From Zoogloea dura (lineage in GTDB: Bacteria; Pseudomonadota; Gammaproteobacteria; Burkholderiales; Rhodocyclaceae), in assembly GCF_012927165.1 (NCBI RefSeq), contig NZ_JABBGA010000004.1:186001-250000 (forward strand): 64,000 nt of DNA, in the 5' to 3' direction. How positions within the stretch are numbered: position 1 is the first letter of the stretch; each line of letters begins with the position of its first letter. The notes under the pieces were generated by a model that was given only the letters and a program-made list of their open reading frames with translations, did not search any database and had not been told where the DNA came from. The translations under genes and the position numbers were made by a program. This document shows, one piece after another, positions 2,804 through 43,993 of this stretch.

Positions 2804-3400
2804 ATGCAACAGCAAGACACCCCCCTGGGCACCGAAGGCACGACCGCGCCGGAACTCGTGGAGAGCATCTCCGGCACCGGCACCGGCGCCGACACCGCAG
2901 CCCCCGTCACCGACACCCCGGAAGCTGACATCATTCCGAGCCTCGCCGAGCAGCTCCGCAGCGCTGAACTCAAGGCCGCCGAGCACCACGACGCATGGCT
3001 GCGTGCCAAGGCAGAGACAGAGAACGTTCGCCGCCGCGCCCAGGATGACATCGCCAAGGCGAGCAAGTTTGCCGCCGAGAAATTCGCGCAGTCCATGCTT
3101 CCGGTCAAGGACAGCCTGGAAGCAGCCCTGGCCACCGAAAACGCCACCCTTGAAAGCCTCAAGCAAGGCGTTGAACTGACGCTCAAGCAGCTCGTCTCCG
3201 CCTTCCAGAGCGCCAATGTCACCGAAGTGAGCCCCGTGGGCGAGAAGTTCGATCCCAACAAGCATCAGGCAATCAGCGCCATCGAGGCCGACGGCGAACC
3301 CAATACCGTGATCAACGTGCTGCAAAAGGGCTACCTGCTCAACGAGCGCGTCATGCGCCCGGCCCTGGTGGTTGTCTCCAAGGCCAAACCTGCCGCTTGA
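2804..3400 (+). CDS. grpE: Nucleotide exchange factor GrpE
   Basis: 198 residues. An acidic, disordered N-terminal ~45 residues is followed by the long coiled-coil ([32 protein letters not shown]) and the C-terminal beta wing with the GrpE signature region [14 protein letters not shown] and [18 protein letters not shown]. It is the cytoplasmic ADP/ATP exchange factor for DnaK. The ATG at 2804 is preceded by GGAG at ~2791; the frame stays open further upstream but runs through the promoter. It is the first gene of a grpE-dnaK-dnaJ operon. Confidence 0.97.
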
Positions 3401-6662: not shown

Positions 6663-6697
6663 TCCTTACGCAAACTGCTGCATTGCAACAACAAATT

Positions 6698-35426: not shown

Positions 35427-35762
35427 TTACTGGAAGAACTCGTCGAGCCTGCCAAAGACCGGGTGCTCACCGGCATGCTGATTAACATAGAGCACATCCT
35501 CCAGCTTCTCGACCTGCTTGATCATCTTGGACAGACGCTCGTCCTCGAAGATCAGCAGCCAGATGCGGCTGGTTTCACCCGTTCCCACCGGCATGCACAG
35601 GATGCCTTCAACGTTGAAGGCACGGCGGGCAAACAGGCCACAGATATGGCTCATCACCCCCGGGTGGTTGGCCACACCCAGCTCGAGCACGACCTTGGTG
35701 AAGCCGTTGTGCTCGGGAACGTCGGGGATGAATTCGGAAAGGTTGGTGTTCTGTTCGGACAT
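35427..35762 (-). CDS. ilvN: Acetolactate synthase small (regulatory) subunit, IlvN type
   Basis: 111 residues: a single ACT domain (TKVVLELGVANHPGVMSHICGLFARRAFNVEGILCMPVG) without the long C-terminal domain of IlvH. This short form matches E. coli IlvN. It is expected to bind valine and confer feedback inhibition on the adjacent large subunit, 18 bases upstream. Confidence 0.92.
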   Translation of the reverse strand: MSEQNTNLSEFIPDVPEHNGFTKVVLELGVANHPGVMSHICGLFARRAFNVEGILCMPVGTGETSRIWLLIFEDERLSKMIKQVEKLEDVLYVNQHAGEHPVFGRLDEFFQ

Positions 35763-35780: not shown

Positions 35781-37445
35781 TCAGCCGATCATCTCGGAGT
35801 TGGCGGCACCCGGCGGCACCATCGGGTAGACGAATTCGTTGGGATCGATCGTGGCGTGGATCAGGCAGGGGCCCGGGGTATTGAGAGCCTCGGCCAGGGT
35901 CACACGCGGGTTCGGCGCCGGATCCAAATCCACTGCGCGCATGCCGAAGCCGTCAGCGATCTTCAGGAAGTCGGTCGGACGCTCATAGCGGGACGCCATG
36001 ATGCGCTTGCCGTAGAACAGGTTTTGCTGCTGGTGCACCAGCCCCAGGGACTGGTTGTTCATCAGCACGATCTTGACGTTGACGTTCTCCTGGGCAGCTG
36101 TCGCCATCTCCTGGATGTTCATCTTCAGGCTGCCGTCACCGGAGAAGCACACCACCGTGCGGTCGGGCGCCGCCAGCGCCGCACCGATGGCCGCCGGGAA
36201 GCCGAAGCCCATGGTGCCGAGGCCACCGGAGTTGAGCCATTGGCGGGAACGGCGGAAGGGATAGGCCTGGGCCACCCACATCTGGTGCTGACCCACATCG
36301 CTGGTGATGATCGCGTTGTCGTCCAGGCAATTGGCGACCGCGTGGATCAGGCCATAGGGCGAACGCGGATTGTCGACACCGGGCATCGCCAGCGGGAAGC
36401 GCCCCTTGAGGCTCTCCACGTGGGACAGCCAGCGCTTGCGCAGTTGCGGCTTGACGCGCGGCAGCAGCTCGGAGAGCACCTGACCCACATCGCCAGCAAT
36501 GGCCACATGCGCGTTCTTGACCTTGTGCAGCTCGGAGCGGTCGATGTCGATATGGATGATCTTCGCGTTCGGACAGAACTCGGCGGTCTTGCCGATGGCA
36601 CGATCATCAAACCGCGCGCCGACGCAGATCAGCAGGTCGGCCTCTTCCAGAACGTAGTTGGTGTAGCGGGCACCGTGCATGCCCAGCATGCCCAGGGACA
36701 GCGGATGGTCCATGGGCATCGCACCCAGTGCCATCAGGGTCATGGTGGTCGGCAGGGAGGCCTGCTCCGCCAGGGTGACCGCCATGTGGGCTGCGCCGGA
36801 GTGGATCACGCCGCCGCCCAGGTACAGCACCGGACGCTCCGCCGACTCGATCATGCGGGCAGCCTCTTCGATCGCCGCGATGTCGAAGCTGGGCGCCGCA
36901 TCGGGCACCACCACGTCGGGGAACTCCTCGAAGCTCACCATCTGGTTCTGGACATCCTTAGGCACGTCGATCAGCACCGGCCCCGGACGATCGGACATCG
37001 CGATGCGGAAGGCGGACGGCACGGCCGTCAGCAGCTCCTTGGCCGAACGGACCAGGAAATTGTGCTTGGTGATGGGTATGGTCAGACCATAGGTATCGAC
37101 CTCCTGGAAGGCGTCGGTACCGATCATGGACAGGGGCACCTGGCCGGTCAGCGCGATCATGGGGATCGAATCGAGCTTGGCGTCGGCGATGGCGGTGATC
37201 AGGTTGGTGGCACCCGGGCCACTGGAGGCCAGGCACACCTCGGGACGGCCGGAGACGCGGGCCATGCCCTGGGCAATGAAGCCGGCGCCCTGCTCGTGAC
37301 GGCACAGCACGTGATGGATCTGTTCGCTCTTCGACAGGGCGTCGTACATGGGCAGGGCCGCACCGCCAGGCACGCCGGCAATGGTGTTGATTCCCTGCCG
37401 CTCGAGCAGCTTCACGATCAGGTCTGCTCCAGTCATTTGATACAT
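35781..37445 (-). CDS. ilvB: Acetolactate synthase large subunit, IlvB type
   Basis: 554 residues. ThDP enzyme fold: the catalytic Glu is in VLCRHEQGAGF, and the diphosphate-binding motif is SGDGSLKMNIQEM ending in NN. It condenses two pyruvates, or pyruvate and 2-oxobutyrate, for valine, leucine and isoleucine. The start at 37445 has AAGGAG six bases before it. It is paired with a short IlvN-type subunit and preceded by a valine-rich leader and terminator, the same layout as enterobacterial ivbL-ilvBN. Confidence 0.95.
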   Translation of the reverse strand: MYQMTGADLIVKLLERQGINTIAGVPGGAALPMYDALSKSEQIHHVLCRHEQGAGFIAQGMARVSGRPEVCLASSGPGATNLITAIADAKLDSIPMIALTGQVPLSMIGTDAFQEVDTYGLTIPITKHNFLVRSAKELLTAVPSAFRIAMSDRPGPVLIDVPKDVQNQMVSFEEFPDVVVPDAAPSFDIAAIEEAARMIESAERPVLYLGGGVIHSGAAHMAVTLAEQASLPTTMTLMALGAMPMDHPLSLGMLGMHGARYTNYVLEEADLLICVGARFDDRAIGKTAEFCPNAKIIHIDIDRSELHKVKNAHVAIAGDVGQVLSELLPRVKPQLRKRWLSHVESLKGRFPLAMPGVDNPRSPYGLIHAVANCLDDNAIITSDVGQHQMWVAQAYPFRRSRQWLNSGGLGTMGFGFPAAIGAALAAPDRTVVCFSGDGSLKMNIQEMATAAQENVNVKIVLMNNQSLGLVHQQQNLFYGKRIMASRYERPTDFLKIADGFGMRAVDLDPAPNPRVTLAEALNTPGPCLIHATIDPNEFVYPMVPPGAANSEMIG

Positions 37446-37502
37446 CGATTTCTCCTTGGACTTGAAAGCCGATGCGCTTTTCCGGCCTGTGGGGTGTGCC
37501 TA

Positions 37503-37540
37503 AAAGACAAAACCCCCGCCGGTTGCGCGCCGGCGGGGGT
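37503..37540 (-). terminator. Attenuator terminator upstream of ilvB
   Basis: Minus strand ACCCCCGCCGG, loop CGCGCAA, CCGGCGGGGGT followed by TTTGTCTTTTA. The 11-bp GC stem plus U-rich tail lies between the leader peptide stop (37574) and the ilvB start (37445), so it must be read through for ilvBN expression. Confidence 0.92.
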
Positions 37541-37573
37541 CTGAAATTCCTAACTCTTGACTGCCTTGGACCC

Positions 37574-37651
37574 TTACGACGCGCGCCTGCCTACGCTTAC
37601 TACGCGTACTACTACGACGTCGACAGGAAGGGCGAAGGCGAAAATGGTCAT
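37574..37651 (-). CDS. ivbL: Valine-rich ilvBN leader peptide (ivbL-like)
   Basis: 25 residues starting MTIFAFALPVD and containing VVVVRVVSV; eight of 25 residues are valine and most of the run uses GTA codons, which look rare in the neighbouring GC-rich genes. From memory, the E. coli IvbL leader also contains VVVVRVV. It is followed by an intrinsic terminator and then ilvB, so valyl-tRNA supply would set ribosome stalling and choose between terminator and antiterminator. One Ile and one Leu codon also occur outside the run. The ribosome site is weak. Confidence 0.88.
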   Translation of the reverse strand: MTIFAFALPVDVVVVRVVSVGRRAS

Positions 37652-37677
37652 GAGGTCATCTACAAGACTAAGCATTG

Positions 37678-37706
37678 ATTATTCGCATGTCAGCTCCAAA
37701 ACACAA
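37678..37706 (-). promoter_or_regulatory. Probable sigma-70 promoter for the ivbL leader and ilvBN
   Basis: TTGTGT (37706-37701), 17 bases, AATAAT (37683-37678; five of six matches to TATAAT). This places the start of transcription about 20 bases before the leader ATG. Confidence 0.55.
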
Positions 37707-40415: not shown

Positions 40416-41997
<1,582 letters not shown>

Positions 41998-42103
41998 AAT
42001 TGTCTTGTTCTGGATGGCCAACAACCCACGCAGCCAGTGGGCATCAAGCGCCGTGGAAGGGTCGGAAGCCTGCCGGATCTTCCCCACGGCAAACTCCTGC
42101 GAT

Positions 42104-43813
42104 TCAGAGGTCCTCGGCCGACAGGATCATGTCCGTCAGGCCCTTGCCACCCTGCACCATCGGATACACGTTTTCGGTGGCATCCACCTGGAAATCGAGG
42201 AAGACCAGATCGTTCTTCTGCTTGAAGGCCTCACGCAACGCCCCTTCGACATCACCCGGCTTGTCGACCCGGATGCCCACGTGACCATAGGCCGCGGCCA
42301 GCTTCGGAAAATCGGGCAGCGCGTCCATGTAGGACTCGGAATAACGGTTGCCGTGGAACAGCTCCTGCCATTGCCGGACCATGCCCAGGTAGCCGTTGTT
42401 CAGCAGGATCACCTTGATGGGCAGGCGGAACTGCTTGCAGGTTGACAGCTCCTGGATGTTCATCTGGATGGAGCCCTCACCCGTGACGCAGGCCACCGGT
42501 GACCCCGGATGGGCAAGCTGAACGCCCATCGCTGCAGGCAGGCCGAAGCCCATGGTGCCGAGACCACCGGAATTGACCCAGCGACGGGGCTTGTCGAACT
42601 TGTAGTACTGGGCGGCCCACATCTGGTGCTGGCCCACGTCCGAAGTCACGAAGGCCTCGCCGGAAGTGACTTCCCAGAGCTTCTGGATCACGTACTGGGG
42701 CTTGATCAGACCTTCGCCCTGGGTGAACTTGAGGCAGTCGCGGCGACGCCATTCGTCGATCTGCTTCCACCACGACCCCAGGGATTCCTGGTCCGGCCGC
42801 TGCGAGGTCGCCTCGAGCTGGGCGAGCAACTCACCCAGCACCTCAGCCACGTCGCCGACAATGGGCACATCCACCTTCACGCGCTTGGAGATGGAGGACG
42901 GATCGATGTCGATGTGGATGATCTTGCGCGGCTCGGACGCGAAATGGTCCGGACTGCCGATCACGCGGTCATCGAAACGGGCACCCACGGCGAGCAGCAC
43001 ATCGCAGTAATGCATGCCCATGTTGGCTTCGTAGTTGCCGTGCATGCCGAGCATGCCGACGAACTGCGGATCGGTGGCCGGATAGCCGCCAAGCCCCATG
43101 AGCGTGTTGGTACAGGGGAAACCGAGCTTGCGCACCAGGGCCGTCAGCTTGTCGGCCGCGTCGCCCAGCACCACCCCGCCGCCGGCATAGATCATCGGCC
43201 GTCGCGCTTCGAGCAACAGTTGCAGGGCCTTCTTGATCTGCCCCTGATGCCCCTTGACGACGGGGCTGTAAGAGCGGATCGAAACCGTCTGCGGGTACTC
43301 GAACTCACACTTCTGAGCTGTGATGTCCTTGGGAATATCGACCAGGACAGGACCAGGACGACCCGTCCTGGCCAAGTAGAAGGCTTTCTTGATGGTGGGC
43401 GCGATGTCGCGCACGTCACGCACCAGGAAGTTGTGCTTCACGCAGGGACGCGTGATACCCACGGTATCCACTTCCTGAAAAGCATCCTGACCGATGGCGG
43501 CGGACGGGACCTGCCCGGAAATCACCACCATCGGGATCGAATCGCAGAAGGCCGTCGCGATGCCGGTCACCGCGTTGGTCGCGCCGGGACCGGAGGTCAC
43601 CAGGGCAACACCCACCTTTTCGGTGGAACGGGCGTAGCCGTCGGCAGCATGGATCGCCGCCTGCTCATGACGCACGAGCACATGGCGGACCTTGTCCTGC
43701 TTGAAAAGCTCGTCGTAGATATACAGTACAGCCCCACCCGGATAGCCGAACAGATAATCGACCTTTTCTTCCTGGAGGCACCTGATTACAATTTCCGCAC
43801 CGGTCATGACCAT
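42104..43813 (-). CDS. ilvI: Acetolactate synthase large subunit, IlvI type
   Basis: 569 residues. The ThDP Glu is in VLVRHEQAAIHAADGYAR and the diphosphate motif reads VTGEGSIQMNIQELSTC ending in NN, with GEGS rather than GDGS. It is paired with full-length IlvH and IlvC on the same strand. The start could be 43813 or 43807 (MVMTGAE / MTGAE); longer readings run into the promoter. Confidence 0.94.
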   Translation of the reverse strand: MVMTGAEIVIRCLQEEKVDYLFGYPGGAVLYIYDELFKQDKVRHVLVRHEQAAIHAADGYARSTEKVGVALVTSGPGATNAVTGIATAFCDSIPMVVISGQVPSAAIGQDAFQEVDTVGITRPCVKHNFLVRDVRDIAPTIKKAFYLARTGRPGPVLVDIPKDITAQKCEFEYPQTVSIRSYSPVVKGHQGQIKKALQLLLEARRPMIYAGGGVVLGDAADKLTALVRKLGFPCTNTLMGLGGYPATDPQFVGMLGMHGNYEANMGMHYCDVLLAVGARFDDRVIGSPDHFASEPRKIIHIDIDPSSISKRVKVDVPIVGDVAEVLGELLAQLEATSQRPDQESLGSWWKQIDEWRRRDCLKFTQGEGLIKPQYVIQKLWEVTSGEAFVTSDVGQHQMWAAQYYKFDKPRRWVNSGGLGTMGFGLPAAMGVQLAHPGSPVACVTGEGSIQMNIQELSTCKQFRLPIKVILLNNGYLGMVRQWQELFHGNRYSESYMDALPDFPKLAAAYGHVGIRVDKPGDVEGALREAFKQKNDLVFLDFQVDATENVYPMVQGGKGLTDMILSAEDL

Positions 43814-43852
43814 CACTGCACCCGAAGCTATATCGGCGATGTAAAACGTTGA

Positions 43853-43881
43853 ACCATACCGCCGCCCCGCGGATTGGTCAA
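43853..43881 (-). promoter_or_regulatory. Probable sigma-70 promoter for ilvIHC
   Basis: TTGACC (43881-43876), exactly 17 bases, TATGGT (43858-43853), pointing toward ilvI 40 bases away. There is no leader peptide with a run of branched-chain codons in this 5' region, unlike ilvB. Confidence 0.6.
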
Positions 43882-43993
43882 GGAAGCCGTTGGGCTGCCC
43901 TGCATTCACCTGCGCCAGCGGTTGCGCCATCCCTGCCCCCCGGCAGCGACAAACAGTCGGGCCAGGCGCGCCCGGACCACAAAGGATTTACCC

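Follow-up and report, generated by a model that had tools for sequence, protein, structure and literature searches.

A valine-rich leader and putative attenuator upstream of ilvBN in a betaproteobacterial family, and its probable passage to enteric bacteria

The ivbL system and the ilvBN locus of the window

The closest described system is the ivbL-ilvBN operon of E. coli, whose attenuator was reportedly described by Friden in 1982 and in which a leader, a terminator, ilvB, and ilvN follow one another. The leader of the E. coli locus in our sample (L112) carries a VVVVRVV run, and the Klebsiella copy is annotated as ivbL. Attenuators of a similar kind precede the enteric ilvG gene (L145), where a leader rich in branched-chain amino acids (which we take to be ilvL) and a terminator again stand before an acetolactate synthase gene (presumably that of the type-II enzyme), although that leader mixes Ile, Leu, and Val and is followed by a different terminator. 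More broadly, PMC6123439 reports, citing Vitreschak 2004, that putative leader peptides and terminators precede branched-chain amino acid genes in various Gram-negative species. Among the papers listed by our full-text search, none dealt with an ilvBN leader in Rhodocyclaceae or betaproteobacteria or with the transfer proposed here, and the attenuator survey of Vitreschak 2004 may describe it.

The window, i.e., the whole stretch of 64,000 nucleotides that was analyzed, carries the following elements on its minus strand.

37701..37706, minus strand: -35-like box TTGTGT (direct reading)
37678..37683, minus strand: -10-like box AATAAT, after a 17-nt spacer (direct reading)
37574..37651, minus strand: leader peptide ORF of 25 residues, MTIFAFALPVDVVVVRVVSVGRRAS (direct reading and ORF list; at 21 of 21 genus loci)
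37577..37584, minus strand: predicted antiterminator helix 1, 5' strand GCGCGTCG, covering the final 8 nt of the leader ORF ahead of the stop (duplex prediction, pair counts)
37569..37573, minus strand: predicted antiterminator helix 2, 5' strand GGGTC, immediately past the stop (folding, duplex prediction)
37525-37532 and 37537-37541, minus strand: predicted antiterminator 3' strands, which are the 5' arm and loop of the terminator (folding)
37510..37542, minus strand: predicted intrinsic terminator hairpin AGACCCCCGCCGGCGCGCAACCGGCGGGGGTTT (terminator and folding predictions)
37502..37512, minus strand: U-rich tract at the end of the hairpin (direct reading)
37452..37457, minus strand: ilvB ribosome-binding site AAGGAG, 6 nt before the ATG (direct reading)
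35781..37445, minus strand: ilvB, acetolactate synthase large subunit, equivalog NF006016 (PRK08155), 1025 bits against a cut-off of 870
35427..35762, minus strand: ilvN, small subunit, equivalog NF006036 (PRK08178), 152 bits against a cut-off of 128

The initial annotation had described a 25-residue, valine-rich leader with mostly GTA codons, a GC stem and U-rich terminator behind it, and then ilvB with a good ribosome-binding site, followed by ilvN, and each of these elements was recovered. Specifically, the 25-residue form (37651-37574) contains 6 GTA and 2 GTC codons by direct reading, the hairpin (37542-37510) folds at approximately -27 kcal/mol with TGTCTTTTAG directly 3' of it, and AAGGAG occupies 37457-37452; the leader RNA has a folding z-score of -2.51. 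Further, IlvB and IlvN both exceed their equivalog cut-offs, which makes the operon one for type-I acetolactate synthase. A chorismate synthase gene comes after ilvN, and a separate ilvI-ilvH-ilvC set lies at 40416-43930, with a large subunit 43% identical to the window's IlvB. When the window was scanned for short ORFs rich in a single amino acid and accompanied by a terminator, the ivbL-like leader alone reached 7 Val in 10 residues; a site on the plus strand near 6696 had 5 Val in 10, and Thr-rich ORFs with 5 in 10 occurred at three places. No second attenuator was found at the window's ilvIHC, where terminator-like sites lacked an ORF having 5 in 10 of one tested amino acid.

Upstream of the leader, the TTGTGT-N17-AATAAT boxes reported earlier are present and form a plausible promoter. 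Of the 21 genus loci, 20 share the exact pair, spaced by 17 or 18 nt (L012 has TTGTCT instead), and a sigma-70 consensus scan listed no promoter here, TTGTGT agreeing with TTGACA at 3 of 6 positions. The longest ORF, of 33 residues, begins at an in-frame outer ATG at 37675 (ORF list). Because the -10 box predicts transcription from approximately 37670, downstream of this outer ATG, and because the outer ATG occurs at 1 of 21 genus loci, that of the window alone, the inner ATG of the 25-residue form is the likely leader start. No obvious Shine-Dalgarno sequence precedes the leader. The interval from the -10 box to the start of the leader contains TAGTCTTGTA at 37661-37670, which has a similar counterpart across the genus and possibly represents the start region or an unusual initiation signal.

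The VVVVRVV run of the window, which the initial annotation had likened to that of E. coli IvbL, is indeed present in L112, but the window's leader is 25 rather than 32 residues long, has the tail RAS rather than GNAP, and uses GTA where E. coli uses GTG and GTC. The window's leader has no match to Pfam PF08049 (IlvB_leader) or NCBIfam NF007579 (IvbL), and the leader of L075 scored 19.1 against a cut-off of 25 bits with the former and 19.3 against 60 with the latter. Membership of the attenuator in an Rfam family was likewise rejected, the window having 0 matches at gathering score; a weak match to His_leader (RF00514) at 37504-37647 reached 19.7 bits against a gathering score of 49, and the codons here are for Val, not His. 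On E. coli L112, the only Rfam match was istR, not the ivbL region. We count the device as one of the ivbL-ilvBN kind, in whose manner it would work; the proposed mechanism is classical.

Distribution of the leader and terminator

IlvB of the window's type was found in 21 of 23 genus genomes at E 1e-150, and the Val leader and terminator were kept at all 21 genus loci examined; loss of either in close relatives had been named as a possible refutation of the reading. Within the family, which we take to be Rhodocyclaceae, probably in the GTDB sense, the operon occurs in 74 of 150 genomes and 34 of 68 genera. The earlier impression of a betaproteobacterial host agrees with close relatives by IlvB in this family, where the protein of Candidatus Accumulibacter regalis matches L069 at 89% and that of Tepidiphilus matches L055 at 98% over 384 residues.

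A fold-based detector, run as one tool with fixed thresholds on all 134 type-I and 70 other IlvB loci, found leader and terminator together at 123 of the 134 type-I loci in its strict form, against 5 of the 70 others (among the matches listed) and 0 of 536 dinucleotide-shuffled upstream regions from type-I loci. A laxer form (4 Val in 10) gave 127 of 134, 8 of 70 (among the matches listed), and 3 of 536, respectively. A locus counted as type I if its IlvB was 52% or more identical to that of the window, with L111 included as well, and the 134 loci comprise 92 from the own genome, genus, and family, 12 from the order and class, 13 from named or plasmid records, and 17 from the enteric order; L133 (short upstream sequence), the repeat copies L097, L099, and L100, and the paralogues L002-L005 were left out. 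The control loci were drawn from a scan of named genomes that covered at least 80 loci, mostly of other ilvB types. Among the 92 own, genus, and family loci, the detector was positive at 84 (strict) or 88 (lax), and thus the search of betaproteobacterial ilvB upstream regions that had been proposed did find Val-rich ORFs with terminators, and the suspected underappreciated spread of the attenuator is supported. These results point to a small peptide, whose window copy the curated leader models miss, ahead of an operon present in 74 of the 150 sampled family genomes. A chance origin of the arrangement is ruled against by the 21 of 21 genus loci and the 0 of 536 shuffles. A first version of the detector, which required a perfect stem and was superseded by the fold-based one, was positive at 69 of 134 type-I loci, 2 of 70 others (among the matches listed), and 0 of 670 shuffles. 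A terminator pattern count gave 89 of the 92 own, genus, and family loci, but the fold-based detector is the better test, since the pattern was written from the same sequences and the most Val-rich ORF was taken with no minimum.

The strict detector missed L046, L055-L057, L068, L088, L090, L091, L109, L110, and L114. By eye, leader and hairpin are present at L093, the attenuator is absent at L090 and L091, where ilvB directly follows a rhodanese-like gene (the gene name being our own reading), and L109, L110, and L114 have hairpins without a clear U tract. Genome G160 contains both L091, without the attenuator, and L085, with a leader. Beyond the family, type-I IlvB is rare: it was found in at least 5 of 300 genomes of the order (one from another family), at least 12 of 369 of the class (own genome included), and at least 17 of 247 genomes (9 of 87 genera) in the order centered on G709, which is taken as Enterobacterales from its rpoB likeness to E. 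coli; these are lower bounds, as few candidates per genome were scored. A Val-rich leader was recognized by eye at the 12 order and class loci and the 17 enteric-order loci, the weakest being L110 and some lacking a clear U tract. Separately, a Val-rich short ORF with a terminator also precedes ilvB genes that are not of type I at L144, L158, and L126 (strict) and L131 (lax), whose hosts are Fibrobacteres, Breznakibacter, Treponema, and a spirochaete MAG.

Antiterminator pairing and leader codons

Folding of the leader RNA, which the initial annotation had suggested for finding mutually exclusive structures, yielded an alternative pairing. In the window, GCGCGUCG (37584-37577) is predicted to pair with CGGCGCGC (37532-37525), and GGGUC (37573-37569) with GACCC (37541-37537); as in the window, the last leader codons and a post-stop GGG of E. 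coli L112 can pair with the terminator's CCC...CGGCGC. At least 8 cross pairs between the terminator region and upstream sequence formed in 84 of 89 locus folds, for which the RNA was folded from a point 24 nt ahead of the stop codon's end and trimmed of the hairpin's final 12 nt. Relative to the end of the stop codon, the leader strand begins 12 nt upstream and finishes 5 nt downstream (medians), and because it ends just past the stop, a ribosome there would block it, while one stalled in the Val run would free it. Folding and pair counts thus suggest an antiterminator that would exclude the terminator and be covered by a ribosome at the stop.

Some covariation is also suggested by an alignment of 44 of 50 loci (L031, L055, L065, L072, L094, and L113 being left out). 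In this alignment, 87.3% of cells pair, versus 32-68% in slid versions, a test that leans somewhat towards the structure because the duplex itself had helped to define where each locus was cut. There were 12 double-changed cells (shuffled mean 4.1) and the covariation score was 0.134 (0.099 when shuffled), values that 0 of 500 shuffles reached in either case; 28 of 500 shuffles matched the 4 double-changed pairs, 18 of 500 matched the pair types, and a +3 slide gave 11 double-changed cells in 5 pairs versus the real structure's 12 in 4. RNAalifold predicted the terminator alone, and no antiterminator, from the same 44-locus alignment. At single loci, the duplex beat all 50 leader-end shuffles in just 22 of 127 cases (median z -1.81), a low yield attributable to GC-rich sequence, and the locus's own terminator arm beat partners swapped in from other loci in 94 of 127. 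In the Tepidiphilus-like loci the terminator arm is different (CCCCCTCCGGAG), and the leader end matches that arm (CCGGAGGG; L055).

The ivbL-type reading that the initial annotation had put forward, with attenuation as in E. coli, is supported by the leader and terminator, by the pairing of the antiterminator, by conservation, and by the layout in E. coli. In the mechanism we propose, the 25-residue leader would be translated as soon as transcription has begun near 37670. With Val-tRNA plentiful, the ribosome would reach the stop and cover the 3' end of the leader ORF, the terminator would form, and ilvBN would be off. With Val-tRNA short, above all the tRNA that reads GUA, the ribosome would stall in the Val run and uncover GCGCGUCG...GGGUC, which would then pair with GACCC...CGGCGCGC in the 5' arm and loop of the terminator, and with this antiterminator formed the polymerase would continue into ilvB.

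The run is enriched in the rarest Val codon: seven verified genes of the window use GTA for 8 of their 250 Val codons. In the leaders of the genus (21 loci), GTA accounts for 126 of 178 Val codons, against 0.9% in ilvB there, and for the remaining family members (67 of 71 loci) the count is 332 of 614, against 2.3% in ilvB. Enteric leaders (22 loci), by comparison, use GTA for 4 of 205 Val codons, with 15% in the ilvB of the 16 enteric loci counted. In the own genome, where tRNAs were recovered at 30 of 59 tRNA loci, these include tRNA-Val genes with the anticodons TAC, GAC, and CAC. A model of leader-codon sensitivity is said to be due to Elf and Ehrenberg. PMC1183508 sets out a model in which codons rare in bulk mRNA make attenuation more sensitive, an argument that the leader's use of such a codon fits; GTA could instead be kept by RNA structure. 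The GTA of the family and the GTG/GTC of the enterics provide a natural experiment on whether rare leader codons sharpen attenuation.

Evolutionary history of the operon

The IlvB/IlvN tree that had been proposed places the enteric operon inside the betaproteobacterial family. Specifically, the enteric rows of the IlvB trees, E. coli's included, nest in the family at 100/98, 100/96, and 100/99, forming one clade, three nodes deep, that adjoins g12 and g14 and then g8. These rows are families f247, f255, and f256 together with named enterics (12 rows in the analysis that gave these supports); f241 genomes of the same order (L210-L213) fall outside the enteric group, L210 and L213 with other gammaproteobacteria. 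L096 of the family branches elsewhere and was left out of later trees. In AU tests, family monophyly was rejected for IlvB at p 0.006 (22 rows) and p 0.002 (35 rows, with L098 of another family and without L096), and for IlvB plus IlvN at p 0.00027 (51 rows), p values that are optimistic because the groups were partly chosen after the trees had been seen; in a sample with fewer enterics, monophyly was not rejected (p 0.0545 and 0.066). In an RpoB tree of 33 of the 40 genomes sought (g14 having no RpoB match), the 25 family rows come together at 96/94, with g8 and g12 inside at 98/89 and the enterics far away. The nearest family relatives of enteric ilvBN are, where tested, ordinary family members by RpoB. 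By IlvB, g39 and g16 belong to the window's group but by RpoB they fall outside it, and L098 lies within the window's family by IlvB only, discord which indicates that the operon has also moved within the order. A leader ending in NAP is found at 5 of 89 family loci, which make up the complete set from g12 and g14; among enteric leaders 13 of 22 end in NAP and 3 more in NAPRRD, which agrees with the nesting in the IlvB trees.

We considered and rejected a recent import of the window's ilvBN from gammaproteobacteria, which the IlvB/IlvN trees, the AU tests, and the RpoB tree do not support. Of the earlier idea of horizontal transfer, the transfer itself is supported by the nested enterics and the AU tests, but the direction it implied is probably to be reversed. 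We place a probability of approximately 0.87 on the reading that this is a ribosome-mediated ilvBN attenuator sensing charged tRNA-Val, old and mostly resident in the family, which a relative of g12 and g14 (and g8) probably gave to an ancestor of the enterics. The sequence shows the leader, the terminator, the complementarity and some covariation of the antiterminator, the co-occurrence with type-I ilvB, and the tree topology; the promoter, the stalling, the termination, the signal sensed, and the direction of transfer are inferred. The attenuator-ilvBN unit looks mostly resident in the window's family, and the simplest account is probably that leader, terminator, and ilvBN passed together from a g12/g14 (and g8) relative to an enteric ancestor, where they would have become ivbL-ilvBN of E. 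coli. That E. coli ivbL-ilvBN is a horizontally acquired betaproteobacterial module from a g8/g12/g14 relative, leader and terminator included, with codons retuned from GTA to GTG/GTC and the switch kept, is a proposition we favor with distinctly less assurance. If true, the textbook enteric attenuator would have a betaproteobacterial origin, which would be the new part, and a leader, RNA switch, and operon could travel as one working module between distant lineages.

It is unlikely that the attenuator works as proposed but moved the other way, from an enteric ancestor to the g8, g12, and g14 genera. Either direction would group the enterics with these genera, type-I ilvB is patchy (the at least 5 of 300 order, 12 of 369 class, and 17 of 247 enteric-order genomes above), and IlvB shows other transfers (g39/g16, L098); yet the enterics are a single clade three nodes deep inside the family, g8 and g12 stand together by both IlvB and RpoB, and several separate gifts would be needed, which is less economical. 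Slightly less probable again is vertical descent from the proteobacterial ancestor, a scenario that takes a great many losses and an erroneous gene tree. The unit is old, since a Val-rich leader accompanies even the deep type-I ilvB branches, as vertical descent would have it, and the smaller tree left family monophyly unrejected; the AU tests with fuller sampling speak against such descent, as does the NAP ending, confined within the family to g12/g14 and common in enterics. It is very improbable that the conserved region serves chiefly for protein binding or processing, or that the leader is a mere reinitiation aid (PMC4833913 presents short leader genes as proposed to raise downstream translation), with a hairpin that is not a regulated terminator. 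Against this stand a strong, U-tailed terminator, mutually exclusive pairing with some covariation, and a run that consists of the pathway's own end product and is enriched in the rarest Val codon.

Two further loci were noted in unusual settings. L124, on an Opitutaceae (Verrucomicrobiota) MAG contig, has a type-I-like IlvB (63-64%) with a Val-rich leader and a terminator upstream of position 3001, and reflects either a transfer or a misbinned contig. L114 lies on the Pantoea plasmid pJZ29-02, typed as conjugative, where a leader-like ORF containing Val, together with the hairpin that lacks a clear U tract, accompanies ilvB and an ACT-domain gene.
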